DNA of 64,000 bases, from assembly GCF_016406125.1 (NCBI RefSeq), contig NZ_CP066339.1:4588001-4652000 (forward strand). Reading direction: 5' to 3'. Source of the DNA: Alicyclobacillus sp. SO9. Its GTDB lineage: Bacteria > Bacillota > Bacilli > Alicyclobacillales > Alicyclobacillaceae. This document shows positions 12,698 to 58,104 of this stretch, in pieces. Each line of letters opens with the position of its first letter. Position 1 is the stretch's first letter. The position numbers and the translations under genes were made by a program. The notes beneath the pieces are model-generated. The model saw only the letters and a program-made list of their open reading frames with translations. It ran no database searches and was not told the origin of the DNA.

Positions 12698-13323
12698 ATG
12701 GCCCCAATTTTCGAGAAGATTTCAAGCGACCAAACCCAAATCTCCGAAGGAGAGAAGTCCCACTTGTATCTTCCCCAAAAGTCTCTCTTTTTCTTTGAAT
12801 CTTGGCTAGAAATTGAACCCAGCGAGCGGTTGGAACTGTTCTTTTCAGCCTTGGACCTTCACCCTTATGCAGCTAAGCTGAAAAGTTCGTCACCCTAGGG
12901 GTCGAAAACCTATCAATCGTGAAGCGAGCTTGCGAGCCGTACTGGCGGTACCATCGGAAGGTATCTCAACCTTTACAGGATTGCACAATCGGTTAGATAC
13001 GGACTTGCAATTCAGTTACCAGTGTGGATTCCGGCTTGATGAAAATGCGCCGTCTGTGTCTACGCTGAGCCGCGTGTTTGGGGCTATTTCGAAATTAGGG
13101 CTTGCCGAAACGCTCTTTGTTGATCTGGTCAGTCAATGTAAAGAAGCGGGCATCATTGATGGCAGTCATCTTGCCATCGACAGTACAGCCATCAAAGCCT
13201 TTGAAAAGAAACAGCCGAAACAAAAGAGCCAGGAAACCGGTAATACGGACTGGGGTGCAAATTCGGATACGTTTGGAAACAAGCTCACTTGGTTTGGTTA
13301 CAAAAATTCATCTTGCCGTCGAT
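12698..13323 (+). pseudogene. 5' part of a decayed DDE transposase gene (DUF772-type)
   Basis: Translated fragments read as one transposase: an N-terminal piece from ATG 12698 ending at a stop near 12896, then in another frame RKPINREASLRAVLA, GISTFTGLHNRLDTDLQF and the first catalytic Asp region (AIDSTAIKAFEKK). There is a frameshift at about 12890-12905. A second lies at an A5 run near 13302: removing one A restores GYKIHLAVD. The gene then runs into the IS21 insertion at 13324. The 3' part resumes at 19671. Confidence 0.8.
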
Positions 13324-13328
13324 TGCAT

Positions 13329-13443
13329 ATTCCGGAATCTCTTGGACGGGCATTCCGGTAAGTCTTGGACGTCAATTCCGAAAACTCTCGGCCACCTATT
13401 CCAATAACTCTTGGACACCCTTTCCGAAAAGTCTTGGACAGGC
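13329..13443 (+). repeat. Five tandem 23-bp repeats at the IS21 left end
   Basis: ATTCCGG-like starts recur at 13329, 13352, 13375, 13398 and 13421 (exact 23-bp period), each unit holding TCTTGGAC. Such multiple terminal repeats are transposase binding sites in IS21-family elements. Confidence 0.85.
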
Positions 13444-13587
13444 AACATGCTAGTTCAGGTACTCCTTACTTCATTTCTCAAATTCGTCTGTGTGGCGACC
13501 AAACAAAAGCAGGGAATTTGCCCCTTTTGTCGGATCTTGTTGTATTCCGCGAAAGGAGGCAATGTCTTGGCTGAATGGAGGTTGCCC

Positions 13588-14327
13588 ATGCCAAAGCTAA
13601 AAGAAATATTACGTCTGTTTCATGAAGGGGGTTTGAGCCGTCGAGCTATTGCGGCGAGTCTCGACATTTCACGCAGCACCGTAACCAATGTTCTAACGCG
13701 TGCTGAGACTGCCGGGGTCGGCTGGCCGTTGTCTACGGAGTTGGAAGACGAGTCAAAACTCGAGTCTGCGCTGTACCCCGCTGTCACGGGGCGGCCACGG
13801 AAAATTGTCGAACCGGACTGGAATTACGTGCATCAGGAACTTCGCAGAAAAGGCGTTACGCTACAGCTATTGTGGATCGAGTACAAGCAGGAACACCAAG
13901 ACGGATACCAGTACAGCCAATTCTGTGAGCACTATCGCCAATGGAAAAAGAAGCTGGATGTGTCCATGCGTCAGAAGCACCGTGGTGGTGAAAAGATGTT
14001 TGTGGATTACGCGGGGCAAACGGTATCAATCATCGACCCAGAAACAGGGGAGGTCCGTGAGGCGCAAATCTTCGTGGCAGTGCTTGGAGCCAGTAGTTAC
14101 ACATACGCCGAAGGACAATGGTCCCAGGGACTTGGAGATTTCATTGGCGGACACGTGAACGCCTTTGAGTACTTCGGTGGCGTTCCCGAACTCGTTGTTC
14201 CAGATAATCTGAGATCAGCAGTGAGGAAGGCAGATCGCTATGAACCCTCAATGAATCGGACCTTCGCAGAAATGGCGCGACACTATGGGTGTGCTGTTAT
14301 GCCAGCAAGACCGTACAGACCAAAAGA
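13588..14327 (+). pseudogene. istA: istA transposase, 5' part (split by RIT element)
   Basis: The reading frame gives an N-terminal HTH (LSRRAIAASLDISRSTVTNV) and the start of the DDE integrase core (FVDYAGQTV and VPDNLRSAV), as in IS21 IstA. ATG 13588 has GGAGG 6 nt upstream; TTG 13567 also has a good ribosome site. The frame is cut after codons reading RPYRPKD by the RIT insertion at about 14322-14328 and continues at 17878. The split protein cannot be made whole. Confidence 0.88.
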
Positions 14328-14350
14328 TTATCCCGACAATTTGGTTATCC
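14322..14350 (+). repeat. RIT left terminal inverted repeat
   Basis: This 29-nt end contains GATTATCCCGAC. It matches the complement of 17823-17851 except at three positions. Confidence 0.8.
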
Positions 14351-14504
14351 TGAATTCGTCACGGAAAGGGTATCGCTACGAATTTATCGTGAGCAAAAAC
14401 TTCGGGATAACTAAAATTTATTCAAATGACTGATCTTCGAATCGACCACCCATACTGATGACACCGGGGGCTATTTCCGGAAATAAGAGTTGGGGGTCAA
14501 GTCC

Positions 14505-15755
14505 ATGGAACGATTAACGCTTCAAGAATTGATCGTGAGAACGAGAGACGGCATTAGACCGATGCATCACAGTCAGTCCACAGTTTGGCAGTATGAATAC
14601 AGTTGGAGAAAACTTTGTGATTATTTCTCTAAACACGGAGTATCATCTTTCTCCGAGAAATTGGCTCAGCAGTTCATCATAGAAATCCGCAAACAGTATG
14701 AAACAGGGGCAATAAAGAGATGGAAATTTAAACTTTTTCGAAAGGCGACTTCGCTGTTAGGGGAGTACCATCAGACTGGATGTGTAACTTGGAGACACGC
14801 TCCGAAGTGGGACAGTGGAGGACTAAAAAGCGCTTCACTCATTACCATTATGGATGACTACACCCGGTATTTGAAAAAACAAGACTACGGCGGCGGAACG
14901 ATTGGCCTTTACAAGACCGTGTGTAACCAGTTTCTTATGTACCTAGAACAGGAGAGCCACCACGATCTCTCCCAACTAACGCTGAGAGACGTAAGTCGAT
15001 TCATTCCGTTTGCTTCAGCCCTGTATCAGTCTACAAGCATGAGGACTGTCTTGTCATCTCTTCGATGTTTTCTCCGATACGCGGACCACATGCATCTGAC
15101 CCATTCCGATTTGGCATACGCTGTTCCCAGTAGCTCGGCAAGGAAGACGCAGACCGTTCCAACGATAACGTCAGAGGAAGAGCAGAGACTGCTTGCTAGG
15201 ATTGACCGGGGTACTCCCGTTGGTATGAGAAACTACGCAATTGTGCTACTAGCCTTGCGACTGGGCCTCCGGTCGATAGACATTGTTCAGTTGAAGTTGG
15301 AAAACATTAAATGGGGAACAAACTCGATTGAGATTACTCAGCAGAAAACGGGGCGGCAACTAGCAATTCCGCTACTGGCTGATGTGGGAAACGCCCTGGT
15401 AGATTATCTGCAAAACGGTAGACCCACATCGCAGGATAGTCATGTGTTTCTAAAAAGCGTTGCTCCGTATACCCCACTATCTCCCACCGCTGGCCTCTAT
15501 TCACTGATTAGCAATTGTATGAAGTATGCCGAAGTTAGACAGGCCAAAGACGAAAGAAGGGGTCCGCATGTACTCAGGCATTCTTTGGCGGCTCGCCTCC
15601 TGATTGCCGAGACGCCGCTACCAGTCATTTCCGGCATCCTTGGACATGCTGACAAAGACTCAACGAAAATTTACCTTTCTACTGACTTAGAGCATCTTCG
15701 TGCCTGTGCTCTAGGCACGGCTGGGATTGAAGTTTCAACGGAGGAATTGAAATGA
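14505..15755 (+). CDS. RIT tyrosine recombinase A
   Basis: The 416-residue integrase-family protein has an N-terminal SAM-like DNA-binding domain and a C-terminal catalytic domain with Arg (LRLGLRSIDIV), HxxR (HVLRHSLAARL), GH (LGHADKDST) and the nucleophile Tyr (KIYLSTD). ATG 14505 follows a GGGGG ribosome site. Its stop overlaps the start of recombinase B (ATGA). It is the first of three recombinases that probably act together to move the element. Confidence 0.88.
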   Translation: MERLTLQELIVRTRDGIRPMHHSQSTVWQYEYSWRKLCDYFSKHGVSSFSEKLAQQFIIEIRKQYETGAIKRWKFKLFRKATSLLGEYHQTGCVTWRHAPKWDSGGLKSASLITIMDDYTRYLKKQDYGGGTIGLYKTVCNQFLMYLEQESHHDLSQLTLRDVSRFIPFASALYQSTSMRTVLSSLRCFLRYADHMHLTHSDLAYAVPSSSARKTQTVPTITSEEEQRLLARIDRGTPVGMRNYAIVLLALRLGLRSIDIVQLKLENIKWGTNSIEITQQKTGRQLAIPLLADVGNALVDYLQNGRPTSQDSHVFLKSVAPYTPLSPTAGLYSLISNCMKYAEVRQAKDERRGPHVLRHSLAARLLIAETPLPVISGILGHADKDSTKIYLSTDLEHLRACALGTAGIEVSTEELK

Positions 15756-16714
15756 CCTCTCTGTTTTCAAGTAACTTTAAGAGTCAGCTGGGGGAATTCA
15801 TTCGGCAGAAACATGCAGTGGGTTTCCCATACGAGTCCTCGGAACTAAGACTAAGGGCATTTGACCGCTTTTGTATTAGACATCACCCGCGAGAGACACG
15901 CTTAACGAAAGAAATCGCCATGCACTGGGCGGAGAAACTGCCTAGAGAACATGTGAATACGCTGATTCGTAGAATTACTCCGATCCGTCAATTTGCGAAG
16001 TACCTGAATAGTATCGGGTCTGAGGCCTACGTCATCCCTTCAGGCATTCCGGCGAAGGGCGTTCGTTATGTTCCACATATCTATACAAAGGAAGAACTCA
16101 CAGCCTTCTTCCGTGAATTAGATCATTGCCTGTACAACAGCAATTCGCCAGCGCGTCACTTAGTTGTTTCTGTGATATTTCGCGTATTGTACTGCTGTGG
16201 CCTACGTTCCTCGGAAGTACTTGGGCTAAAAGTTGAGGACGTTGATTTGGTGACAGGTAAACTCTTCATTTGCCAATCAAAAGGCCACAAGGATCGCACA
16301 GTCGTGATGTCGGACGATATTTTGAAGCTCTGCCAAATTTACCACAGCAGAGTTAGTCTCATTTTCACCAATCGAGTTTACTTCTTCCCGAACCATCGCG
16401 GTCATCACTACAACAGACAGTTTCTAGATTTCACATTTCGTGAGTTTTGGACAAAGACCGGTATCGTCTTCACTAACGGAAATCCACCTCGCGTTCATGA
16501 TTTCCGCCACACATTTGCTGTCAATCGATTGAACCAGTGGGTAAAGGAAGAGAAGGATCTTAACGCCTATCTACCTTACCTCTCCATGTATCTTGGCCAC
16601 GAACACCTGACAGATACTGATTACTATCTGCACTTGGTGCCAGAGTTCTTCCCTGTGCTGACATCTGAATCTGACGAACGATTCTCGCAGTTGATACCGG
16701 AGGCTAAGAAATGA
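15752..16714 (+). CDS. RIT tyrosine recombinase B
   Basis: The 320-residue integrase-family protein has catalytic Arg (YCCGLRSSEVLGL), HxxR (HDFRHTFAVNR), GH (LGHEHLTDTD) and Tyr (DYYLHL). It overlaps recombinases A and C by 4 nt each (ATGA), so all three are translationally coupled. Confidence 0.88.
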   Translation: MTSLFSSNFKSQLGEFIRQKHAVGFPYESSELRLRAFDRFCIRHHPRETRLTKEIAMHWAEKLPREHVNTLIRRITPIRQFAKYLNSIGSEAYVIPSGIPAKGVRYVPHIYTKEELTAFFRELDHCLYNSNSPARHLVVSVIFRVLYCCGLRSSEVLGLKVEDVDLVTGKLFICQSKGHKDRTVVMSDDILKLCQIYHSRVSLIFTNRVYFFPNHRGHHYNRQFLDFTFREFWTKTGIVFTNGNPPRVHDFRHTFAVNRLNQWVKEEKDLNAYLPYLSMYLGHEHLTDTDYYLHLVPEFFPVLTSESDERFSQLIPEAKK

Positions 16715-17742
16715 AAATAGATGACCGTTTCTTTAGGCTTGTTCGAGATTTTCTCCTGATTTATCTGCCTAAGAACAGATGCTGCAGCCAAAACACAGTG
16801 AAAGCCTATCGAGACACAATTCACCTTCTGCAAGTTTTTATGAAGGAGCAAAAGCGGGTACCTTTTGCAAAGATCACGTTCGACAGGCTGAACCATGCAC
16901 TTGTCAGTGAGTTTTTAGACTGGCTTCAGACAGAACGAAAGTGCAGGGTATCCACAAGAAACCATCGGCTCGCAGCCCTGAAGTCGTTCTTTAAATATGC
17001 AGCACAGGAAGATGCTTCACTAATGTTTGCGTACGTTGAGCTCGGCAAGGTACCGGTCAAGAGACAGCCTGGTAGGCGTGTGAGTTACATGTCTGAGTCA
17101 GGGTTGGCCGCTCTGCTCCAAGAGCCGGATGAAGGTACCAAACGCGGTATACGTGATAGGTTCTTCATGATTTTTCTCTACGACACGGGTGCCCGGATTC
17201 AGGAAGTCTTAGATCTGCAACTGGGAGATTTGCACCTGAAAGACAGCGTTCCCTGCGTCTACCTCACAGGCAAACGACAAAAGACAAGAGTTGTCCCACT
17301 GTTAAACAAGACACTACAGCATCTGGAGCTGTATCTGCAGCACTTTCATCCGAAAGAGGCATATAGCAGCAACAACAGCTTGTTTTACACGGTCATTAAT
17401 GGCAAGACGGGAAAAATGTCTCCAGACAACGTTGCTAGTTTTTTGAAGCGTTATGGTGCATCTGCGAGGCTCAGGTGTTCGGAGGTTCCCGAGCGGGTGT
17501 ATCCTCATCTCTTTCGGCACACGCGTGCGATGCATCTGTACCAATCTGGAATGCCACTCTCTTACATTAAGGATTTTCTTGGTCATGCCAGCGTCAACAC
17601 CACAGATATCTACGCTTCCGCAGATGTTTCTATGCTGAAAGCTGCTCTTGAGAGAACTTATGTCAATGGAGATATTCGACCCGAGATTCCTGTCTGGGAA
17701 GATAATGAAGAATTGCTGCTTCACCTATGCGGACTGCAGTAG
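16711..17742 (+). CDS. RIT tyrosine recombinase C
   Basis: The 343-residue XerC/D-like recombinase has catalytic Arg (YDTGARIQEVLDL), HxxR (HLFRHTRAMHLY), GH (LGHASVNTTD) and Tyr (IYASAD). It is the last gene of the trio. The frame is intact, so the element may still be active. Confidence 0.88.
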   Translation: MKIDDRFFRLVRDFLLIYLPKNRCCSQNTVKAYRDTIHLLQVFMKEQKRVPFAKITFDRLNHALVSEFLDWLQTERKCRVSTRNHRLAALKSFFKYAAQEDASLMFAYVELGKVPVKRQPGRRVSYMSESGLAALLQEPDEGTKRGIRDRFFMIFLYDTGARIQEVLDLQLGDLHLKDSVPCVYLTGKRQKTRVVPLLNKTLQHLELYLQHFHPKEAYSSNNSLFYTVINGKTGKMSPDNVASFLKRYGASARLRCSEVPERVYPHLFRHTRAMHLYQSGMPLSYIKDFLGHASVNTTDIYASADVSMLKAALERTYVNGDIRPEIPVWEDNEELLLHLCGLQ

Positions 17743-17822
17743 GCATACTTGTTATCCCGAAGTTTTCGTCCAGGAAGGGCTGCCTTGGACACAGTGGGAA
17801 CAGCTTTCGCGTCCATTCTTCG

Positions 17823-17851
17823 GGATAACTACATCGTCGGGATAATCTTTT
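17823..17851 (-). repeat. RIT right terminal inverted repeat
   Basis: The complement matches 14322-14350 at 26 of 29 positions. A further 26 nt lie between it and the istA junction, so the right side is longer than the left. Confidence 0.8.
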
Positions 17852-17877
17852 TTATCCTGAGTTCGGAATAAAAAAGA

Positions 17878-18682
17878 CAAGCCAAAGGCCGAGGTGGGCG
17901 TCAAAATCGTAGAGCAGTGGATTCTCGCGGCGCTCAGAAATAGAAGGTTCTTTAGCCTTGGAGAACTGAACACTGCCATTCGTGACGCGTTGGAAGTGCT
18001 CAACAACAAACCGTTTCAAAAGCTGGAGGGCACGCGCGTATCCCTGTTTGACGCCGTGGATAAGCCGGCCCTCCGAGCCCTACCGACCATCCCCTACGAG
18101 TTTGCCCGTTGGGTTCAGGCCCGTGTAGCTCCAGACTATCATATCGAGGTGGACAAGAACTACTACAGTGTGCCTTACTCGTTGGTTCGAGAGTACGTCA
18201 ATGTACGAATCAGCGAAAAGATTGTTGAGGTGTTTTTGCATGGGAAACGGGTTGCCAGTCACGTTCGGGCTAGGCACAAATATGGGCACATCACAGAACC
18301 GACCCATATGCCCAAGTCCCATCGGGCACACATGGAATGGACGCCGGAGAAGTTTATCGATTGGGGTAAAACCTTCGGTCCATACACAGCGGCGGTGACA
18401 GACCAGATTTTGCTTCGAAAAGCGCATCGTGAACAGGCCTACCGCTCCTGTCGGGGACTACAATCCCTAGCAAAAAAATACGGAAAGGAGCGAATGGAGT
18501 CAGCTTGCGCACATGCCGTTTCTATCAACGCCTGCACCTATCGAAGTGTGAAATCGATCCTTGAAGCCGGCATTGACCAGGTGACATTAGACGTCGATAC
18601 AGACAAGCCCACTCCGCTTCATGAGAATGTTCGTGGAGCTACGTACTACGGCTCTACCTTTGCAACTGAAAAGCCTCACTAG
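17878..18682 (+). pseudogene. istA: istA transposase, 3' part
   Basis: The frame resumes with [21 protein letters not shown], the region of the last catalytic Glu of IstA, and continues through the C-terminal DNA-binding part to TAG at 18682. It is a continuation of 13588-14327 and has no start of its own. Confidence 0.85.
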
Positions 18683-18757
18683 TTCATGTATCATCCGCCG
18701 GTGTCCAGATTCAACGGACGCCGGCAGCTCTATCAAAATGCAGGGAGGAATCTATCA

Positions 18758-19531
18758 ATGCTTAGTAATCAAACGACCAACACACTTCGCCAACTTCGAC
18801 TCAACGGTATGGCTGACGCGTATGCACGGCAGCAGAAGGATGCTCATGCTGCAGAACTCACCTTTGACGACCGCCTTGGATTGCTTGTCGACCACGAATG
18901 GACTTTGCGTCAAAACCGTCAATTGGCCCGTTTGCTCAAAGCGGCCCACCTCAGAGTTCAAGCGACTCCGGAGGAAATCGACTACCAGGTGCCTAGAGGC
19001 ATAGATCGCTCACTCGTCCAGCAATTGCTCACGGGACAGTGGCTAACCGAACGACACAATCTACTCATCTCCGGACCCACAGGAGCAGGCAAAACTTTTC
19101 TGGCCTGTGCCCTAGCCACTGGGGCATGTCGACTTGGCTTCAAAGTCCAGTACCATCGACTCTCTCGTCTCCTACACCAAATGATGATGGCTAAGGGAGA
19201 CGGTACCTACGGGCGCGTAGCCAAAGCCTTGTCCAAGATCGATCTACTCATTCTTGACGATTGGGGCCTGGCGAACGTCTCAGCACCTGAAGCCAGGGAA
19301 CTGTTGGATATCCTCGACGATAGAGTACGGCAGCATTCCACCTGCGTGGTTAGTCAAATCCCAGTAGAACTCTGGTATGAACAATTTTCTGATGCAACAC
19401 TGGCAGACGCCGTGTTGGACCGTCTTGTCCACGATGCGTATAAGATTCAGCTCAAGGGAGAGTCCATGCGCAAGCTCAAGAGCGGGATAAAAAACAGCAC
19501 TGGGGACGAAAAAATGATTGCAAAAAACTAA
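18758..19531 (+). CDS. istB: IS21 helper ATPase IstB
   Basis: The 257-residue AAA+ ATPase has Walker A (SGPTGAGKTF, about residue 108) and Walker B (DLLILDDWG). IstB assembles on DNA and directs IstA to target sites. ATG 18758 has GGGAGG 9 nt upstream. The frame is intact although its partner istA is broken. Confidence 0.93.
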   Translation: MLSNQTTNTLRQLRLNGMADAYARQQKDAHAAELTFDDRLGLLVDHEWTLRQNRQLARLLKAAHLRVQATPEEIDYQVPRGIDRSLVQQLLTGQWLTERHNLLISGPTGAGKTFLACALATGACRLGFKVQYHRLSRLLHQMMMAKGDGTYGRVAKALSKIDLLILDDWGLANVSAPEARELLDILDDRVRQHSTCVVSQIPVELWYEQFSDATLADAVLDRLVHDAYKIQLKGESMRKLKSGIKNSTGDEKMIAKN

Positions 19532-33814: not shown

Positions 33815-34627
33815 ATGCATTCCTATTGGTTTTGGATTGGGTCCTTTCCAATTCGCTCGTACAGTACCATTTTCGCCCTGGCATTTTTGCTGGGTCTGGC
33901 TGTTACGCTGTATTTTACCAAGATTTACGGAAATCCGGGAGACAGCGAACTTTGGTGGAACATGGGACCGATATGCCTCTTAGGAGGGATTATTGGTGCC
34001 CGAGTTTGGCAGGTATTTTTCTTTGATTGGTCCTTTTACTCACATCATTTGGGCCAAATTGTTGCCGTTTGGAACGGTGGACTCTCGATTCAAGGGGGAA
34101 TTGTTGGCGGGTTTATCGCAGGTGTTTGGTATATATGGAGGAAACAAAAGAGCTGGATTCACTTTGCGGACCTCGCCGCACCAGGGCTGTTGATTGGGCA
34201 AAGCATCGGACGCGACGCCGATTTTATGAATGGGAGTGCATATGGTTCTCCAACACACAGTCAATTCGGCGTGCTGTTTCCAAAGGATACACTGGCAGCT
34301 CAACAGTATCCTGGACAAGCATTATGGCCCTCTGTAGTTTGGGAGGCACAAGCAGACATCATTTTGTTTGCAATTCTCTTAATCCTCTTCCAACGGAAGA
34401 AAAAATGGCCTTCTGGTACAGCTTTTTCCTTCTACTTAGTCGCCTACAACGCTATGCGTTTCTTCATGGAAATGTTACGTGGCGATTCACCCCGGTTTGC
34501 CCTGGGATGGGATGCGGCACAGTATACGGCAGCCATATCCGTACTTATTGGGATCGGTTTGACCATCTGGGTATTTATCAGAAAGAAGCAAACCCGGGTC
34601 TCTTATACAGGTTCGTCAGAAACATAA
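33815..34627 (+). CDS. lgt: Prolipoprotein diacylglyceryl transferase
   Basis: The 270-residue membrane protein has the Lgt landmarks: GGLSIQGGIVGG (residues about 89-100), the GRDADFMNGSAYG version of the Lgt signature (usual GRxGNFxNGExxG), and a C-terminal RFFMEMLRGD segment. Lgt attaches diacylglycerol to lipobox Cys before signal cleavage. GGAGG precedes ATG 33815. The altered signature hints at a specialised paralog rather than the housekeeping enzyme. Confidence 0.88.
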   Translation: MHSYWFWIGSFPIRSYSTIFALAFLLGLAVTLYFTKIYGNPGDSELWWNMGPICLLGGIIGARVWQVFFFDWSFYSHHLGQIVAVWNGGLSIQGGIVGGFIAGVWYIWRKQKSWIHFADLAAPGLLIGQSIGRDADFMNGSAYGSPTHSQFGVLFPKDTLAAQQYPGQALWPSVVWEAQADIILFAILLILFQRKKKWPSGTAFSFYLVAYNAMRFFMEMLRGDSPRFALGWDAAQYTAAISVLIGIGLTIWVFIRKKQTRVSYTGSSET

Positions 34628-34636
34628 TATGGTTTC

Positions 34637-34680
34637 CCGGAAAGAGGCGTCTTTGAACTTTCCTCTTTCCGGCCCTTTTT
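34637..34680 (+). terminator. Rho-independent terminator of lgt
   Basis: A perfect 11-bp stem (CCGGAAAGAGG) with 14-nt loop is followed by CCCTTTTTG, 10 nt past the lgt stop. Confidence 0.9.
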
Positions 34681-34803
34681 GTGTTCTTTCGCTTTGTTTA
34701 TTACAAAGTCTGTTTCGGCAGACTCTGTTGCGTCGGGACAGTATCATCAGGATGCATCATACCGTCCCAAAGCCAATGACGATTCTCTTTAGAAGAAGAA
34801 CCT

Positions 34804-35076
34804 TTATAGTATGAGACGTTCAATCATTTCTTTATTTTGTTCAAAGCCGATAAAGTGCTGTTCTTTTTTGCCAAGACCTAAAAATCCTTTTTTGGTAATG
34901 ACAATGCCGGGGACAATTCTCCCTCCCGTTTTTTTCTTTAAGTCTGCTTCTTTTTCGGGATTTTCAGTAAGGTCAATGTTTTGATACTGAATTTGGTGAG
35001 ATGAAAGAAACTCTTTCAACGCTTGGCAATCTGTTCAAGTAGGGCGTGTGTATATGGTAATATTCGATGTTTGCAT
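34804..35076 (-). CDS. Glutaredoxin-like protein with in-frame UGA at the first active-site Cys
   Basis: From ATG 35076 (GGGG 7 nt upstream) the frame reads MQTSNITIYTRPT, then TGA (35035-35037, codon 14), then TDCQALKEFLSS through a normal glutaredoxin C-terminus (GGRIVPGIVI, cis-Pro). The family motif would be CTDC, so UGA sits exactly on the first catalytic Cys. It could be a UxxC selenoprotein; an AU-rich 7-bp hairpin with a GUU loop starts about 17 nt after the UGA. Otherwise it is a nonsense mutant or sequencing error, with a shorter product from TTG 35019 lacking the active site. Confidence 0.7.
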
Positions 35077-35136
35077 AAGGCATCCCCTTTCTAAGTATCC
35101 AAATTACTCTTTCCATTTTAACCCCTTTAAAAATCC

Positions 35137-35751
35137 TCATTCAAATCTCGGAACTGCGTCAATGCGACGAAATATGTCTGAAAAGGCAACAAGTTTCACG
35201 TCTTTAATTGAGAAACCCGCTGCAGAGAGATTGTCCATCGTTCGCCGATTCACATTGGCACCTGTCATCCGAACAACCACTGGATTCATCACATGAAGCA
35301 TGGCTGCAAGTGGAAGATGATCGCTAAGCATATGCTCCAACATGAGCAGATGCCCATCAGGCTTCAATACACGACGAATCTCCTGCAATCCTACAATAGG
35401 GTTAGGCACTGAGCAGAAAACACAGGTTGAAACGACTGTATCAAAAGTATTGTCTGCAAAATCCAAGTGCTGAACATCCATCTGTAACAGTTGAATAGTT
35501 GCTTGAGATTCGTGAACTCGCTTGGATGCATACGATAGCATCCGCGGACTAAAGTCAATCCCGACAACATGCGTCCCTTCGGAATAATACGGCAGGTTTG
35601 CTCCCGTTCCTACACCCACTTCGAGAACTTCACCTTGTGCAGCACGAATCAGCTGCTCGCGTTGGTCCTCATCGACCATTCGGTCCATCCGGTCAAACAA
35701 CGGTGCAATCCGGTCATATCGCCGACGAATTTTATTTGATTTAACATCCAT
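35137..35751 (-). CDS. Class I SAM-dependent methyltransferase
   Basis: The 204-residue protein has motif I (VLEVGVGTGANLPYY), an acidic loop (VVGIDFSPRML) and FDTVVSTCVFCSV, close to phospholipid N-methyltransferase and UbiE-like enzymes. ATG 35751 has AGGTGG upstream. It is co-transcribed with the glutaredoxin gene 60 nt downstream and preceded by repeat promoter K. Substrate unknown; a lipid is possible. Confidence 0.85.
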   Translation of the reverse strand: MDVKSNKIRRRYDRIAPLFDRMDRMVDEDQREQLIRAAQGEVLEVGVGTGANLPYYSEGTHVVGIDFSPRMLSYASKRVHESQATIQLLQMDVQHLDFADNTFDTVVSTCVFCSVPNPIVGLQEIRRVLKPDGHLLMLEHMLSDHLPLAAMLHVMNPVVVRMTGANVNRRTMDNLSAAGFSIKDVKLVAFSDIFRRIDAVPRFE

Positions 35752-35830
35752 AGTGAACCACCTGCCAATGAATTTTAGAAACCTATGTTTAACATACTCC
35801 TGAATTCACCCAGGTACTTTCCTTAGTCTA

Positions 35831-35868
35831 GTTATATCCCAAAAATATGTAGAAAGTATGTAGACACT
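35831..35868 (-). promoter_or_regulatory. 11-bp direct-repeat promoter, site K
   Basis: On the minus strand AGTGTCTACAT, ACTTTCTACAT, then 10 nt and TATAAC. It drives the methyltransferase-glutaredoxin pair. Confidence 0.75.
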
Positions 35869-36001
35869 GTGACTGCAGGCGGTGAGTAAAACATGACGGT
35901 TTGTCCAGCCCAATCCATTGTTCACTTTAGCGGTCAATCCCGTGGAACAGTTGGACGGCTTTCACCATCAAACTGGATGTCCGGTTTTTCAAAGTTGTTA
36001 T

Positions 36002-36039
36002 CGTTTCTTGATACTTTCTACACAAGTTTTATGTATGCT
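36002..36039 (+). promoter_or_regulatory. 11-bp direct-repeat promoter, site L
   Basis: CGTTTCTTGAT, ACTTTCTACAC, then 10 nt and TATGCT. The SHOCT gene starts 23 nt later. Confidence 0.75.
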
Positions 36040-36061
36040 CCCTATGGAGGTGAAGACAAAG

Positions 36062-36352
36062 ATGATGTTCGGGGGCTTCTTTTTTATTGTGATTATCGCG
36101 ACAATCTTATATTTCTCTGTATTGCGCCACGGAGGACACAGTTCATGGCATCACGGTTATCACAATCATCATGATGGTCATCACCATGACCACGGTCATT
36201 ATGATAATCACCATCATTCTCATTACAGTTCTTATCGGGACAATGAGAGTCATTCTAGTGACGATCTCATTACACTACTGCAACAGCGATATGCCAAAGG
36301 AGAAATTGACAGGGAAACATATCAGAAGATGTTAAAGGAACTGAAAAGATAA
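36062..36352 (+). CDS. Membrane-anchored His-rich SHOCT protein
   Basis: The 96-residue protein (ATG 36062, GGAGG 10 nt upstream) has one membrane helix (FFFIVIIATILYFSVL), a stretch of about 30 residues with more than a dozen His, and a C-terminal SHOCT domain (DLITLLQQRYAKGEIDRETYQKML). It is a membrane-bound relative of the SHOCT proteins at 8409 and 29001. Extracytoplasmic metal binding is plausible. Confidence 0.8.
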   Translation: MMFGGFFFIVIIATILYFSVLRHGGHSSWHHGYHNHHDGHHHDHGHYDNHHHSHYSSYRDNESHSSDDLITLLQQRYAKGEIDRETYQKMLKELKR

Positions 36353-36529: not shown

Positions 36530-37000
36530 CTAAGCAGCGCCAACGAACTTTCGGCACTCATGGGCGCATTTGAGACACATATGACCACATCGTTGTGAGT
36601 GTGAATCATGAAAATGAAGGCATTCGTTACCGCATGACTCGCAAACCTTCGCGCATAGCTTCACCTTTTTTCTAGCAAACGGGCTGTTGGCTGAAAGAGA
36701 TTGAGCTGTGTCTTTACAGGTTTTTGCACACTCCCTTAGCAGTTGTATCTGTCGAAAACGCATGGAGGTGTCGGTTGCCTCCAGGAGAACAGTAATGGTT
36801 CTATGGCACATATGTTCACATTCGTGAAGTGTTTTAAGAAGCCTATCACTGTGATGGGCGGCCCCATCTTGAATACTAAACGATTGACTGGGCTGAGCAG
36901 TTGAGTGAGCCATCACCCCCCCATCGGAGAGAGGGTGTTGCATCGAGGAATTGTGCGTGTGCTCCGCACGGTGTTCAGCCCGCTGATTGTCGTCGGTCAT
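36530..37000 (-). CDS. Cys-rich four-helix copper-storage (Csp-like) protein
   Basis: The 156-residue protein has a His/Gln-rich N-terminus without a Cys, then a helical Cys-rich region: CEHMC, CAKTC, CAKVCESCGNEC, CGHMCLKCAHEC. Regular Cys spacing in helices is the mark of Csp-type copper storage proteins and related four-helix Cys proteins. No signal peptide is visible, so it would be cytosolic (Csp3-like). AAGGAGG precedes ATG 37000. Confidence 0.85.
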   Translation of the reverse strand: MTDDNQRAEHRAEHTHNSSMQHPLSDGGVMAHSTAQPSQSFSIQDGAAHHSDRLLKTLHECEHMCHRTITVLLEATDTSMRFRQIQLLRECAKTCKDTAQSLSANSPFARKKVKLCAKVCESCGNECLHFHDSHSQRCGHMCLKCAHECRKFVGAA

Positions 37001-38060: not shown

Positions 38061-38915
38061 GTGGTTGGAATGGCACTGTTGGTGCTGGCAGGGTGTGGAA
38101 CACAGAATTCCACTACCAACGGCCAAGCCTCGACAACACCGGCTAATCATACAAACACCACCGCAACGGCCTCGTCCAAAACTACTTCAACTTCCCTGAA
38201 GAAACAGCACATTTACTTAACCGTTTTACCCGGTGGAAAACTAGGCTCTGATGGCAAGAAACACGATGCGTTCTCACCGAGCAACTTTACATTGGTGAAA
38301 GGTGTTCCAACAACCATCACGATTTACAACTTTGACGACATGAAGCACAGTGTTACAAACAGTAAGCTGGGACTGAATATCCAAGCCAATCCATCCAAAA
38401 AAGATGGCAAACCCGGTGTAACGACGGTGACTTTCACACCAAAACAGGTGGGGGATTTCACATGGCAGTGCGTCGACCCCTGTGACACAGACAACAACGG
38501 CTGGGCCATGTCTCATACCGGATACATGAAGGGAACCATTCATGTTGTACCTAATCAGAAAGCGACACAGGATATTTCCTTAACAGTCATGCCCGGGGGC
38601 AAACTGGGCCCCGATGGAAAGAAACACGATGCATTTTTGCCGGCGAATTTTACAATGCAAAAGGGGGTCCCCGTCAAATTAACAATCTATAACTACGACG
38701 ACATGAAACACAGCATCACCAGTCCAAAATTGAACCTGAATGTTCAGGCGAATCCATCCAAGAAAGACGGTAAGGCTGGCGTAACGACGGTGACTTTTAC
38801 CCCGAAACAGGCGGGCACATTCCAATGGAACTGTGTTGACCCCTGTGACACAGACAACAATGGCTGGGCGATGTCTCATTCCGGCTACATGATGGGGAAT
38901 ATTACAGTTCAGTAA
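38061..38915 (+). CDS. Lipoprotein with two tandem CuA-like cupredoxin domains
   Basis: The 284-residue frame begins at GTG 38061 with a lipobox (VLAGC), a Ser/Thr linker, then two near-identical domains (about residues 50-165 and 170-284). Each has His in DMKHS and a C-x3-C ... H-x3-M loop (WQCVDPCDTD... MSHTGYM; NCVDPCDTD... MSHSGYM). The CxxxC-His-Met set recalls the CuA site of cytochrome oxidase subunit II, with a longer Cys-to-His loop. An ATG at 38041 (MKKALM) is one nt out of frame; adding one A to the A5 run would fuse it into a normal signal peptide. Confidence 0.7.
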   Translation: MVGMALLVLAGCGTQNSTTNGQASTTPANHTNTTATASSKTTSTSLKKQHIYLTVLPGGKLGSDGKKHDAFSPSNFTLVKGVPTTITIYNFDDMKHSVTNSKLGLNIQANPSKKDGKPGVTTVTFTPKQVGDFTWQCVDPCDTDNNGWAMSHTGYMKGTIHVVPNQKATQDISLTVMPGGKLGPDGKKHDAFLPANFTMQKGVPVKLTIYNYDDMKHSITSPKLNLNVQANPSKKDGKAGVTTVTFTPKQAGTFQWNCVDPCDTDNNGWAMSHSGYMMGNITVQ

Positions 38916-47721: not shown

Positions 47722-47933
47722 CCGGTGCATTGCTGGTGTACTTGCGTGAATTATGGGCAAAGCAGTGGCCTGAAGTGCGAAATTGTCGGTGTAACCTTCA
47801 ATTCTCCTGGGGATACTGATGTTATTTACCGGACGTAGTGTTGCAAAATGAATTCGTTTCGGAGTCCGATAGATGCGGTGCCCGTACGTTCGTATTTATG
47901 TATTTATGTGAGATTTTAACGGAGGGATTTCAT

Positions 47934-49601
47934 ATGACTGAATCAAGCAGCAAAAAACAAGTTCGACTCGTCGTAAAAGGCATGACTTGCGATGATTGTG
48001 AACGCCATGTCTCCCATGCGCTTGAAAGCGTGGGAGCGGACAATATATTAGCGAGTTTTCGCCGCGATGAAGCTACATTCGAGTTGACAGACCTAAATCA
48101 GCTTGATGCTGCCAAACAGGCGATTACGAATACAGGGTACAAGCCTGGTGACGCTACCGTCCTCGGCGATCCACAGCCCAGCGTTCTACCCGATACGGGT
48201 GGGAACTTCGACTACGACTTGCTGATCATCGGGTCAGGCGGTTCAGCATTCTCAGCGGCGATTCAAGCCGTGTCGTATGGTGCGAAAGTTGCCATGGTGG
48301 AGAGAGGAACCGTCGGTGGGACGTGCGTAAACATTGGTTGCGTACCCTCAAAGAACATGCTTCGGGCGGGTGAGATTAATCGCATAGCGACGCAAAATCC
48401 GTTTCAGGGGCTTAACACATCGGCCGGACCAATCGATTTGGGTAAACTCATTGACCGCAAAGATGAGTTGGTTGGAGACCTCCGGCAAGATAAGTATGTG
48501 GACCTGATTGACGAATACGGCTTTGAGCTCATTCAAGGTGAGGCTCGTTTTGTAGACGAGTCGACTGTTGAAGTGAATGGACAAAAGATCATGGCTCGAA
48601 ATTTCCTGATTTCTACCGGAGCATCTCCTGCTGTGCCCAATATTCCGGGATTGAATGACGTGGATTACCTGGTCAGCACCACGGCGCTTGAACTCAAAGA
48701 GCTTCCAAAGCGATTGGCTGTCATAGGTTCTGGATATATCGCCATGGAGCTTGGCCAGATGTTCCACAACTTCGGCACAGAGGTTACTCTGATGCAGCGG
48801 AGTGCTCGTGTATTGAAGTCGTACGATCCTGAAGTTTCGGCGGCAGTCACCACGGCGTTGACAGACCAAGGGGTCGACATCATCACCGGGGCGACATTCA
48901 ATCGAGTCGAGCAGGACGGGGGCATCAAACGGGTACAGCTCACTGTGAATGGCCAGGAGCAAATCGTCGAAGCGGAAGCCTTGCTCGTTGCAACAGGTCG
49001 AAGGCCCAACACGGAGACTCTGAATCTGAGCGCAGCAAATGTACAAGTTGGCGATCGCGGTGAAGTTCTGGTGAATGAATATCTTCGCACGAGTAATCAC
49101 CAGATCTATGCGGCAGGCGACGTTACAATGGGACCCCAGTTCGTATATGTGGCAGCATATGAAGGCGGGATTGTAGCAAAGAACGCACTGGCTGGAAGCG
49201 AAGAAAAAGTTGACTTGACGGTCGTTCCAGGCGTGACATTTACGAATCCAGCGATTGCAACTGTCGGTCTTACAGAAGAACAGGCAAAGTCCAGTGGATA
49301 CGAAGTTTTGACTTCCGTACTTCCGCTTGATGCAGTACCTCGGGCTTTGGTCAATCGAGAGACCACAGGCGTATATAAACTGGTGGCAGATGCCAAGACA
49401 CGAAAGATTCTCGGGGTTCATGTGGTGGCAGAAAACGCAGGAGACGTCATATACACGGGTGTGCTCGCAGTGAAGTTTGGACTGACCATTGAAGATCTGC
49501 GATCAACGCTTGCTCCGTACCTAACCATGGCGGAGGGGGTAAAGCTGGCAGCACTGACGTTTGACAAAGACGTGTCAAAGCTTTCATGCTGTGCTGGTTG
49601 A
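47934..49601 (+). CDS. merA: Mercuric reductase
   Basis: The 555-residue flavoprotein has an N-terminal HMA domain (GMTCDDC), FAD-binding [10 protein letters not shown], redox pair CVNIGC (Cys131, Cys136), a second dinucleotide fold ([10 protein letters not shown]), AAGDV and the C-terminal vicinal Cys552-Cys553. It reduces Hg(II) to Hg(0) with NADPH. ATG 47934 has GGAGG 8 nt upstream. No merT/merP-like transport gene is in the window. Confidence 0.96.
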
Positions 49602-53804: not shown

Positions 53805-55079
53805 TTAATCGATTCTTGTCAACAACCGATTCACTTTTCGTGCCAACCTCTGTCCCCAAGCCCACGAGTCACTTCTACGATGTCTTGCCAAAACGTAGTG
53901 GTTCTCCATCAAAGCAGTGATACTTGCGCGGTCCCATGCACCTTGAGGCGTGATAGATTCATTCAGGAGTCTCACAGCAGTCTGTAGAGGAGCCTTCGGC
54001 GCATGAAATTGTGCGTAGAGTAACGTCGACATACTGTGTCCATCTCGACCATCCACCTCCAATATGTACACCTTCCTGTTCATCGAATGAATCGCAACAA
54101 CGGCATAGAGGCGGTCGGCTTCGTCTAACGTTCGTGAAATGGGTGATTCTTTAGGGATTCTCTCAATGATGAACCCGACATCGTACCCTCGTTGAAACGT
54201 CATCCCGTCAATGGCCCGGAAAAATGGCAACATCGAATCAGGTACTGAGCTTTCTTCAAGTCCTCTAAACGGAGTAAACTCACCGGCGGGCAAAAAGCCC
54301 TGCCCTCCCTCCTCATAAAAACTGACCTCCCTCGATTCAGACTTACCCACTTTGCGATATCTAGTGACGTTTTCCTGCGCACCGTTTTTTCCAATCCCCG
54401 ACCTAGGCTTCATCCCTAATTCGTGAACCTCCATATTCGATACGTTAAAGTGTTGAGATATGTCGGTACCCAGCATGACAGGTTGGGTAATCGCCGTTGG
54501 ACTCGTGGGTTCACGCGGAATTTGAACCTCTCTATTTGAAGGGGAACTTGAGTGGCCTCCCTTTGATGACCCAACGTGAAACTCTCCGTGCTTCACCGAG
54601 TTCGGGTGAGAGAACCAAATCTTCGTAAATGGGAAGGAAGTTGAAGATTCGGTGCGAACGATTCGAAGTACAAATGACAAGGTTCCCGAAGAGTACCCGA
54701 GAGTTGTCCATCGGCTCCCCGCCAAATGAGGTGGCTCACAAGTAAGGGGAACCGTGCACCCCGCATCGTTGTTACTCGGTCGGTTGTGCCAGACCTGTTT
54801 CCACCGTTCATTCCAATCAGGATTCGTTAGAATTTGCCCAATCAATGCGACCGTATATTTAGATCGAAGGATGCTGTGCGGCATCTTTTTGTCGAATCTC
54901 ATCCTAAGAATGTTACCATCCAGGGTGGCCCTCACAAGGTCCGCTAAACCGCTAGGGGTCAGTATTGCCTCAGCCATCATCCGATTTGGGCAATAGAATG
55001 CGCGGATGACCTCAATACGGGGTCTGTGTAGCAATGGAACAGAAAACCGGAATAAGCGATCCAGTTTATGTAACGCCAT
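53805..55079 (-). CDS. Uncharacterised protein coupled to tnpA, TnsE C-terminus-like
   Basis: The 424-residue protein starts at ATG 55079, overlapping the tnpA stop by one nt (TGATG). The N-terminus (HKLDRLFRFSVPLLHRP) and a low-complexity middle are followed by a C-terminal domain with RLYAVVAIHSMNRKVYILEV and DGRDGHSMSTLL. That pattern recalls the C-terminal domain of Tn7 TnsE, a target-selection protein, from memory only. Coupling to tnpA suggests a role in transposition or targeting. Confidence 0.5.
   Translation of the reverse strand: MALHKLDRLFRFSVPLLHRPRIEVIRAFYCPNRMMAEAILTPSGLADLVRATLDGNILRMRFDKKMPHSILRSKYTVALIGQILTNPDWNERWKQVWHNRPSNNDAGCTVPLTCEPPHLAGSRWTTLGYSSGTLSFVLRIVRTESSTSFPFTKIWFSHPNSVKHGEFHVGSSKGGHSSSPSNREVQIPREPTSPTAITQPVMLGTDISQHFNVSNMEVHELGMKPRSGIGKNGAQENVTRYRKVGKSESREVSFYEEGGQGFLPAGEFTPFRGLEESSVPDSMLPFFRAIDGMTFQRGYDVGFIIERIPKESPISRTLDEADRLYAVVAIHSMNRKVYILEVDGRDGHSMSTLLYAQFHAPKAPLQTAVRLLNESITPQGAWDRASITALMENHYVLARHRRSDSWAWGQRLARKVNRLLTRID
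55019..55072 (-). repeat. 54-bp segment repeated at 63867-63920
   Basis: This stretch covers codons 3-20 of the gene coupled to tnpA. It recurs exactly, in opposite orientation, at 63867-63920, with no similarity beyond the 54 bp. Confidence 0.9.
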
Positions 55080-58000
55080 CAGAAAGAATCTGCACTCCCT
55101 CGATTTAACGGTCGTAAATCACCATGTGCAATTTCTTCTGGTAAGGTAAACGAGTATCGGCCCACCATGTTAATGTGGTCGTGTCCCACGGGAGAAAGCC
55201 GTTTTATATCAGTAAGGTCCATCATTTGACCTTGTACTCGCAAATTTTGCAAGGCCGCACTCATATACCGGGTATTCCAAAGAACAATCGCATTCACGAC
55301 GAATCCGAGTGCGCCGAGTTGATCCTCCTGGCCTTCCTTGTATCGCTGATGAAGCTCTCCACGCTTGCCATAGCAAACAGCCCGAGCTAGGCTGTGACGA
55401 CTTTCTCCGCGATTGAGCTGCGTCAATATCCGTCGCCGATATCCGGGATCATTCAAGTAATTGAGCAGGTAAATTGTCTTGTAAATCCGCCCGTATTCCC
55501 CAATCGCTTTCCCTAAAGTTGTCGGTCGGCCGTCACGTTGAAGAGTTCGAATCAATCGAGAGGCGGTGACAGTTCCAAGTTTCAAGGAACCGGCGACACG
55601 TAGCATATCGTTCCAGTTCTGAACAATGCGCTCCGGGTGTAAACGGTGGCGAGCCAAATCATTGAGTGGCCCATAGTTGGCAGCGGGATCAAGCCGCCAA
55701 AATCTTGATTCTCCAATGTCAGCTAAGCGCGGACTAAATTGATACCCCAAAAGGCCAAACAGTCCAAAGATAATGTCACTGTACCCAGCGGTATCCGTCA
55801 TGATTTCTTGGGGCTGTAGGACCGTTTGTTGTCCTAATAATAGATCTAGCAGATACAGCGAATCCCGAATTGTTCCAGGAATGACGATGCCATTCAACCC
55901 TGTAAACTGGTCGCTAGCGAAGTTGTAATATGTCACGCCACGCCCGGCACCAAAGTATTTGGGATTGGGACCCGCGTGAATCGTCCGAACCGGTGTTACA
56001 AATCGAAGCCCATCGGCAGATGCAACTTCGCCGGTACCCCATGTCGTCGCCAACTGCAGGCCGCTTTGATATTCCACGAGTTTATTGTTCGCTTGTGTGA
56101 GCGTTTCAGCTCGAAAATAGTTTTGCTCAACCCAAGTCAATCGATCCCGAGTCAAAGCGGGGACACCCAATTGGACGACCGGTTCCAGTCCGATGTTACA
56201 TGCCTCGGCAATCAGCACCGCACAAACGCTAGTCGTCAGGTCCTGTACCCTCGACCCACCTTCACTAAAGTGGGTAAAAGCATCTGCAAATCCGGTCCAG
56301 GTATTGACTTCAAGCAACAATTCCGGCAAGTCAATCCGGGGTAGTAGGGATTGAATTTGTGACCGAAGTGTTTGCAGAGAAGGAGGTTCCTCCAATTTGT
56401 CCAAAGCGGTCAAAACAACCCGGCTCTTCCCCTGAATGTTCTCCATACGGACATCTGTATTCTCAGGCCAACGTTCGGCGGTTTGTTGATACGCGGTGTT
56501 CAACTTCTCCCCGAGTTCTCGGACTTCCTGCTCAGCATCTATAGTTCGATCCAACGTGCGTAAAACTTGTGGACGCACTGCTTCCCAAGCCTGTCCCTGG
56601 AGAAGTTGTGCCCTTGGGTCATTGTATCGCTCACTCGGAGTAACGAAGATGTCGTGGTGGCGCAGAGCTTCATGGATGCGAATGAGTACCCAGAACGTAT
56701 AGGCCCGTTGCTGAATCTGATCATTCTCGTCATAGACTACCTGCTGCCAAGAAGTTGTCATTCCGGTGACGGGTGCCTGTGTCCAAGGGATCTTCTTCGC
56801 CCCCTCATAGTCACGTAAGAATCGCCAGGCGTCTAAAACTGGCTTTGCAGATGAATTCGCCTCGAAATGAATCATCCGAAACATCTGGGGTAAAAACCGA
56901 CGAATCCCGTTGTAATGGCTAAACAACTGCGTAAAGTACACATTTTCCTCTGGCCGGCGCGTTAGGGCATCGATGGTTTGAATGGAGTCTGTCAGTACCT
57001 CAGCAGATACCCGAGCAAAAATCGTTGCCCGAAGCTTGGCATCCGGTGTCTGATCGTTTAGGAGGATTACACAGGCTTCCCGTAACTGACGTGCGGCCGC
57101 ATCCAGATCGCGGATCGTTCGGAGCCGGGCCCGCTTCCCCTCTTGCTGGGTCTTGGCTAAAAGTTCAGTCATAAGTCGATCAAACAACTCCAGCAAATCG
57201 TCCTGAGCCGTAATCGCAAAAACGTTGGCAAACGCGACTAAAGTGGCCAGTTGTCGTTCCAAAGACATCCGGGATATCGCCTGTGCCCTGGCTGCAGCCG
57301 CAAAACGGGCGAGGGTGTGCAGTCGTCCTACAGGAATGTGCGACAAATCCCAAGTCGTACCTCCGTAAGAACGGACGACTGCCAAGCGTTCTAACCCTTC
57401 CAACATCCCTTTCGCCGTAAGGTTTGTTGGTGGACGGCGAAGATGGTCTAATTCGGTTTGTCGAGAGGAAACTTTCGCAGTCAACAACTGCTCTAGTCGA
57501 TTACGCTCAGAGTAGTTTGGAACCTGGGCCAAGAGGCGCCAGAGCCGGGTGGCCACGCGGTCACGGATCTGGGCAATCAGCCGTGCAAGTATCGTTACAC
57601 CAGGCAATAAAACTTTCTTTTCTACACACCTGGCCGTGGCTAAATCAAATAACACGCTGGGCCGTTCTGCAGTCAACCAAGCGTGGTGGTACAACCATCT
57701 CACGAATTCGAAGTGATGCGGCTGGTCTGGGAAATCGCGATATCCATATGCCTTTCGAATTTCCGCTGTGTGATCCCACCGACTCTCCGAACCACGATAA
57801 CGCTCGAAAACACGAGTATTGGCCATTTGCAGTTGACTTGCGACATACCTTACAACGGATATTGGGACATCCGTGGGATCGGTTAAAAAGGTCCCTAAAA
57901 ATCTGACGGTACCGAGTTGGATAGCAAACCCCAGTTGATTATGGGAACCTCGATGTTGTGTGACAAGATGGTGATCGCGGTCATCTAGCCAAAAGTAACG

Positions 58001-58081
58001 AGCCAGTTGTTCCGGTGTTGGCTCTTCAATCATTCGACCGTATCGGCGCTCTTGTTCTGGAGTAAGGAAATCTACAGGCAC
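55079..58081 (-). CDS. tnpA: Tn3-family transposase TnpA
   Basis: The 1000-residue protein has the length and order of Tn3 transposases: N-terminal DNA-binding part (RYGRMIEEPTPEQLARYF), then the DDE core with MTDTAGYSDIIFGLFGLLGY (catalytic Asp) and the C-terminal LNRGESRHSLARAVCYGKRGEL. It catalyses replicative transposition. It starts 23 nt after tnpI and is intact. Confidence 0.95.
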   Translation of the reverse strand: MPVDFLTPEQERRYGRMIEEPTPEQLARYFWLDDRDHHLVTQHRGSHNQLGFAIQLGTVRFLGTFLTDPTDVPISVVRYVASQLQMANTRVFERYRGSESRWDHTAEIRKAYGYRDFPDQPHHFEFVRWLYHHAWLTAERPSVLFDLATARCVEKKVLLPGVTILARLIAQIRDRVATRLWRLLAQVPNYSERNRLEQLLTAKVSSRQTELDHLRRPPTNLTAKGMLEGLERLAVVRSYGGTTWDLSHIPVGRLHTLARFAAAARAQAISRMSLERQLATLVAFANVFAITAQDDLLELFDRLMTELLAKTQQEGKRARLRTIRDLDAAARQLREACVILLNDQTPDAKLRATIFARVSAEVLTDSIQTIDALTRRPEENVYFTQLFSHYNGIRRFLPQMFRMIHFEANSSAKPVLDAWRFLRDYEGAKKIPWTQAPVTGMTTSWQQVVYDENDQIQQRAYTFWVLIRIHEALRHHDIFVTPSERYNDPRAQLLQGQAWEAVRPQVLRTLDRTIDAEQEVRELGEKLNTAYQQTAERWPENTDVRMENIQGKSRVVLTALDKLEEPPSLQTLRSQIQSLLPRIDLPELLLEVNTWTGFADAFTHFSEGGSRVQDLTTSVCAVLIAEACNIGLEPVVQLGVPALTRDRLTWVEQNYFRAETLTQANNKLVEYQSGLQLATTWGTGEVASADGLRFVTPVRTIHAGPNPKYFGAGRGVTYYNFASDQFTGLNGIVIPGTIRDSLYLLDLLLGQQTVLQPQEIMTDTAGYSDIIFGLFGLLGYQFSPRLADIGESRFWRLDPAANYGPLNDLARHRLHPERIVQNWNDMLRVAGSLKLGTVTASRLIRTLQRDGRPTTLGKAIGEYGRIYKTIYLLNYLNDPGYRRRILTQLNRGESRHSLARAVCYGKRGELHQRYKEGQEDQLGALGFVVNAIVLWNTRYMSAALQNLRVQGQMMDLTDIKRLSPVGHDHINMVGRYSFTLPEEIAHGDLRPLNRGSADSF

Positions 58082-58104
58082 GTTTTCCTCCCTGGAGTCA
58101 GGAG

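Follow-up and report, generated by a model that had tools for sequence, protein, structure and literature searches.

In the present study, a glutaredoxin gene of Alicyclobacillus sp. SO9 that looks broken by a stop codon, yet is almost certainly intact, has been analyzed within a 64,000-nucleotide stretch of the genome (hereafter, the window). The gene is taken to be intact, with its in-frame UGA read as selenocysteine (Sec), because its relatives share the UGA together with a downstream hairpin and because the genome contains the machinery for Sec insertion. It very probably encodes a functional glutaredoxin-fold thiol/selenol oxidoreductase, in which SelB and Sec-tRNA acting on the hairpin would place Sec at the UGA. 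That this is a selenoprotein gene can be stated with high confidence and the mechanism is an ordinary one; the interest lies in a subfamily of the Bacilli, a nearly fixed hairpin, copies on plasmids and a link with metals.

The putative glutaredoxin-family selenoprotein gene occupies 35076-34804 on the minus strand and comprises 90 codons, counting the UGA as a Sec codon, followed by the stop. The frame runs MQTSNITIYTRPT-UGA-TDCQALKEFLS...LIL-stop, and the single in-frame TGA is codon 14 (35037-35035, minus strand), at which the predicted Sec would replace the first Cys of a CxDC motif. The resolving Cys of the resulting UxDC motif is encoded by the TGC of codon 17 (35028-35026, minus strand) and is Cys in all 17 aligned members. 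A sequence resembling a ribosome-binding site (AGAAAGGGG, 35092-35084, minus strand) stands 7 nt before the ATG. The sequence-only reading had described a frame continuous on both sides of one UGA, a ribosome site ahead of it, and the UGA at the first catalytic Cys, and each of these features was borne out: when the UGA is treated as a residue, the frame with 8 added upstream residues matches PF00462 (Glutaredoxin) at 3.7e-15, with 56.3 bits against a gathering cut-off of 22.9. The frame is otherwise intact and its conserved residues are kept in the 17-member alignment, which comprises 17 of the 20 matches of at least 77 bits; the three left out are L056 and L064, as near-copies, and the second copy in G260, which has no locus. 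The predicted fold is that of a glutaredoxin (pLDDT 90.1), with residue 14 just ahead of helix 1 (residues 15-26), and it matches the structure of E. coli Grx3 (1fov; TM 0.70/0.76, E 3.2e-4), with thioredoxins in the same list. Among solved chains, 7c10 (E 1.3e-9), titled dithiol cGrx1, is the closest in sequence, and we take it to be a Cys form of a selenoprotein glutaredoxin. Structures of Clostridium oremlandii glutaredoxin-1 are reported in the available part of one source (PMC7642778), and the title of 7c10 matches these by name.

A SECIS-like stem-loop of 7 bp, UGAAAGA-GUU-UCUUUCA, is located at 35018-35002 on the minus strand, in agreement with the earlier description of a 7-bp hairpin with a GUU loop about 17 nt past the UGA; it starts 16 nt after the UGA. 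The UGA-to-loop distance of 23 nt also agrees with the claim that the hairpin lies in the SECIS distance range, since the bSECIS model, as given in the available part of its description, has a UGA-to-loop distance of 16-37 nt, a loop of 3-9 nt that has G at position 1 or 2, a stem of 4-16 bp, and a minimum free energy (MFE) of at most -7.5 kcal/mol (PMC13188914). The window element resembles this model in its 3-nt loop starting with GU, its 7-bp stem and its distance, whereas it differs in energy (-5.6 rather than at most -7.5 kcal/mol) and in a primary sequence that is nearly invariant in two glutaredoxin groups. Over 46 nt, the energy of -5.6 kcal/mol has a z score of -0.01 against shuffles and is unremarkable alone. 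Scans of the 64-kb window returned no Rfam match and no tRNA, and in 34600-36100 a promoter and terminator scan showed no excess (three promoter sites versus a shuffle mean of 2.8). SelB carrying Sec-tRNA would dock on the hairpin, which starts 16 nt past the UGA (35037-35035), and would insert Sec at this codon; conservation together with the machinery suggests that a U-T-D-C active site would result. The fold further suggests that the selenol, placed where the first active-site helix begins, would either attack disulfides or bind ions of soft metals, Cys17 being the resolving thiol.

The sequence-only reading had proposed a search for the Sec genes, and all of them are present in the source genome (5.29 Mb, two contigs), each over its curated cut-off: tRNA-Sec (63.9 bits versus 47; anticodon tca by ARAGORN, run on one 19-kb genome stretch outside the window), SelA (507 aa, 559 bits versus 268), SelB (651 aa, 373 bits joined versus 242) and SelD (400 bits versus 125). 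The selD gene (L076, G000:C1:3770106-3771035, minus strand) has an in-frame UGA of its own in SGUGCK, and the selenophosphate synthetase of this genome is probably itself a selenoprotein. A second glutaredoxin (L017, G000:C1:2651043-2651252, minus strand) carries UGA in place of its first Cys (TSTUPYC), with a hairpin of its own, 8 bp long (GGUUAAAA-GGU-UUUUAACC), 14 nt past the UGA in a shifted register, and a third (L023) is in the Cys form. Taken together, tRNA-Sec, SelA, SelB, SelD and the UGA codons in selD and L017 indicate a full Sec pathway with at least two further in-frame-UGA genes.

The same codon recurs in relatives. A scan of named species genomes, with a reach of close relatives, returned one locus, in Vulcanibacillus modesticaldus (NZ_MIJF01000019.1), whose protein is 57% identical. 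The corresponding codon there is likewise TGA, the hairpin reads CUGAAAGAGUUUCUUUCAG, and the gene directly upstream encodes a related methyltransferase; the V. modesticaldus genome also has tRNA-Sec at 71.9 bits. The recurrence of codon, hairpin and neighbor at 57% protein identity in another genus is more than chance. A profile search in 398 genomes of the class gave 20 matches of at least 77 bits in 19 genomes, with UGA at the subfamily codon in seven genomes of seven species (the source genome, G087, G077, G325, G104, G291 and G148) and Cys in the other 12; the G087 glutaredoxin sequence is the same as that of V. modesticaldus. A selB gene over the cut-off was present in 7/7 UGA genomes versus 1/12 Cys genomes (G240), with a Fisher p of 1.6e-4 that overstates independence because the genomes are related. 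Beyond this subfamily, 12 further genomes have glutaredoxins in which UGA takes the place of the first active-site Cys, and all 12 have selB. Orthologues with Cys or UGA at this codon had been named beforehand as a check, and UGA was found as expected in V. modesticaldus, the nearest named relative, in five more species of the class and in six plasmid records; Cys orthologues also exist, though 11 of the 12 Cys genomes are without selB over the cut-off. An in-frame TGA as a general artifact of such matches was considered and rejected: in G274 and G368, which are without selB, the TGA immediately precedes the ATG, and Cys is found in the active site. In the tree, 6 of 16 branches were starred for support, and the Sec and Cys states need three changes, with two as the least number forced. 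Two sisters (96/94) differ in state, L050 having UGA in a genome with selB (G325) and L052 having Cys in a genome where no selB exceeds the cut-off (G341). Locus L052 retains GAAAAGAGTTTCTTGC, with the stem down to four consecutive pairs and KEFLA in the protein, and likely represents a Sec-to-Cys change with decay of the hairpin.

Among 72,556 plasmid records, 127 were also found to have relatives of less than 60% identity, and 100 of the 127 bear the name Staphylococcus. The active-site codon was read in nine of the 127 (H1-H8 and H10), and six of these copies have UGA and the same hairpin: Mesobacillus foraminis (L108), Cytobacillus firmus (L107 and L121), C. oceanisediminis (L119 and L120) and C. 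pseudoceanisediminis (L122). The remaining three, from Staphylococcus cohnii (L106), Metabacillus sp. (L123) and Exiguobacterium acetylicum (L124), have Cys. Annotation misses the UGA glutaredoxin genes, as no listed gene begins before the UGA in any of the six copies: three begin at the next codon, two further on, and in the sixth no listed gene lies over the match (the gene table describes itself as incomplete). In a plasmid search with SelB, the six UGA plasmids were absent among the 20 matches listed of 206 records, and a megablast of 10 kb against plasmids gave no match.

These distributions bear on the possibility, which the sequence-only reading had regarded as a real alternative, that the gene is a pseudogene, an ordinary glutaredoxin gene whose Cys codon became UGA by mutation amid other broken genes. 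TGA is one base from TGC or TGT, and the region has transposase- and integrase-like frames. However, the frame is otherwise intact with its conserved residues, V. modesticaldus has the same UGA, hairpin and neighbor at 57% identity, six plasmid copies repeat the UGA and the hairpin, and the UGA is shared by seven species that all have selB. Mutation is accordingly rejected, and we consider it exceedingly improbable that the gene is a broken one rather than a Sec-encoding gene.

To compare the recoding signal between Sec and Cys forms, 42 glutaredoxin loci (18 UGA and 24 Cys) were placed in the same codon register, leaving out L008, L009, L010, L014, L016, L018, L019, L022, L024 and L068-L075, as well as L001 and L045, which are copies of L047 and L046. 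Counted from the loop, six to nine consecutive stem pairs were present in 16/18 UGA rows versus zero to four in all 24 Cys rows, and without the five rows found by pattern the comparison is 11/13 UGA rows with at least six pairs versus 0/24 Cys rows. The UGA exceptions without the hairpin in register are L017 and L021. An MFE of at most -7.5 kcal/mol was reached by 15 of the 18 UGA rows, with the window (-5.6), L017 (-6.0) and L048 (-6.6) falling short; L053 and L021 reach it, yet their best fold differs from the conserved hairpin. In an alignment of 11 of the 18 UGA rows, which left out the five pattern-found rows, L017 and L021, a choice that favors the counted structure, 95.5% of pair positions were paired versus 41-73% when the structure was slid, and compensatory changes were observed at two of eight pairs. 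The pattern TGA-N17-GAAAGAGTTTCTTTC matched in 11 of the 398 genomes, compared with one of 398 for the reversed control, and all 11 matches have TGY three codons past the TGA. A second group of glutaredoxins, with UGKC, UGQC, UGPC and UGAC sites (L007, L013, L015, L020, L087, L089, L092, L096 and L097), has the GAAAGAGTTTCTTTC hairpin at an equal distance from the UGA.

The hairpin overlaps the codons for KEFLS, and its conservation might in principle be a by-product of this peptide, the gene using another, unseen recoding signal. KEFL lies in a helix of the protein, the hairpin energy alone is unremarkable, and Cys forms can hold part of the stem: L052, with KEFLA, has four consecutive pairs, and the Cys plasmid copy from Metabacillus (L123, outside the 42-locus set), with KEFLS, has five. 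The choice of codons argues against such a by-product. The UGA members inspected spell GAA(A/G)GAGTTTCTTTC at a fixed distance from the UGA; of the 288 synonymous spellings of KEFLS, 16 keep a six-pair stem, given the preceding G, and eight of these 16 also give G at the loop start. All seven UGA members from the class search use spellings from those eight, and other UGA glutaredoxins share the same spelling. A by-product of the peptide is thus very unlikely, and the hairpin is better read as the signal for Sec insertion. The tracking of the full hairpin with UGA also bears on the identity of the inserted residue. Because the position is Cys in the 12 other subfamily genomes, the UGA might be read as another amino acid, either as Cys through a tRNA with a UCA anticodon or as Trp by readthrough. 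As to further tRNAs with a UCA anticodon, the ARAGORN run covered a single 19-kb stretch of the genome. Against such a reading, UGA tracks selB in 7/7 and then 12/12 genomes, and tRNA-Sec and SelA are both present in the source genome, so that decoding as anything other than Sec has hardly any probability.

A glutaredoxin with a UxxC site is a listed, experimentally verified selenoprotein family in Table 1 of PMC13188914, so far as the available part of that source goes. The available parts of other reports describe selenoprotein glutaredoxins from the Sargasso Sea (PMC1088965) and in Geobacter, Alkaliphilus and Moorella (PMC1794560), the latter source giving three selenoproteins in three families for the Firmicutes/Bacillales. 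Because the family was already listed, the suggestion of a possible new selenoprotein needs qualifying: a selenoprotein is supported, although as a new member and subfamily of the listed glutaredoxin family and not as a new kind. The window protein shares the glutaredoxin fold and the UxxC site with the Sec glutaredoxins of PF00462, e.g. that of C. oremlandii. In contrast, its subfamily is separate, has a longer VP-to-GFE segment than is seen in relatives, e.g. L002, and partly has metal-gene neighbors, and its clear members lie within its class in the samples searched. A phylum-wide search at E <= 1e-15 matched 4 of 398 genomes (the source genome, G148, G084 and G715) and gave no clear new member; G084 belongs to the same class (61.7 bits), and G715, also at 61.7 bits but with an internal TAG, to a different one.

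Membership in the UXX-star (seleno)protein families was also considered. These families are glutaredoxin-like and show local similarity to the window protein of 37-52 bits, but it falls under their curated cut-offs (52.3 of 100 for NF041211, 50.2 of 66 for NF041212 and 37.4 of 97 for NF047338), and membership is rejected; the same cut-offs are missed by the V. modesticaldus orthologue and the UGA members L048, L050, L051 and L053. The best NCBIfam match is the YruB-family glutaredoxin-like protein (TIGR02196), at 59 bits under a cut-off of 88.55, and each of the 16 NCBIfam models listed at E <= 0.001 has a cut-off that the protein does not reach. No model of the subfamily's own was found in the NCBIfam release scanned, and no description of it was found in the portions of the open-licence PMC literature available.

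Regarding the gene neighborhood, a methyltransferase gene precedes the glutaredoxin gene, as previously noted: a class I SAM methyltransferase (Methyltransf_11; 35751-35137, minus strand) ends 60 nt before the ATG, with a V. modesticaldus counterpart in the same place (50% identity over 183 aa). Among the 19 class-search loci, a methyltransferase within 1.5 kb was observed at these two only. The L122 plasmid has an upstream methyltransferase 37% identical to that of the window over 78 aa, and none was found upstream in L107, L108, L119 or L121. The methyltransferase may or may not be a functional partner of the glutaredoxin.

Genes for handling metals were observed near several orthologues. 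CsoR-type repressors are located near those in G341, G217 and G325, an HMA protein and a P-type ATPase near that in G341, and a P-type ATPase near that in G104; judging from the first residues of the neighbors, no evident metal gene lies near the G077, G291, G148 and V. modesticaldus loci. On the plasmids, a repressor and a cation transporter are listed near the glutaredoxin of S. cohnii, a P-type ATPase and a multicopper oxidase near that of M. foraminis, and in E. acetylicum a P-type ATPase precedes the glutaredoxin and a heavy-metal-associated protein follows it. No metal gene is listed within 7 kb of the glutaredoxin on the C. firmus CK19 plasmid, and for the other five plasmid regions the view extended 600 bases to either side. 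In the window, genes for a DUF326 Cys-rich protein (36530-37000, minus strand), presumably like copper-storage proteins, a cupredoxin-like protein (38061-38915, plus strand), thioredoxin-like proteins, SCO1/redoxin and a DsbD-type protein lie within 5 kb of the glutaredoxin gene. A pyridine-nucleotide oxidoreductase with an HMA-like start (47838-49601, plus strand; HMA 24.3 bits versus a cut-off of 24.8), 13 kb away, appears on reading to be mercuric-reductase-like, and a copper-type P-ATPase, assigned by sequence, lies at 9329-11704 on the plus strand. Transposase- and integrase-like frames, some apparently split, were observed by translation at 12930-19531 and 53805-58992, which suggests a mobile or rearranged region. 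Because several orthologues adjoin CsoR/CopZ/CopA-type genes and the window holds metal-handling genes, redox protection under metal stress is most likely the role of the glutaredoxin, as a best guess from context.

Herein, we tentatively propose a broader picture, one that is possible but somewhat less likely than not: a selenoprotein glutaredoxin of the Bacilli, chromosomal and plasmid-borne and linked to metal resistance, with a selenol that would deal with soft metals, such as Cu and Hg, or with disulfides that metals induce. Its near-invariant 15-nt hairpin (GAAAGAGUUUCUUUC) would be recognized by SelB through both sequence and shape and would dictate KEFLS. Several implications follow from the present study. 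First, the selenoprotein list gains a subfamily from the class Bacilli that occurs in both Sec and Cys forms, the form tracking the presence of selB. Second, TGA-N17-GAAAGAGTTTCTTTC is a simple DNA pattern that picked out UGA glutaredoxins. Third, the hairpin offers a natural test of SelB recognition, and the standard energy cut-off would discard it. If the proposal is true, the hairpin would dictate KEFLS across glutaredoxin groups, and an RNA signal would thereby shape the protein.
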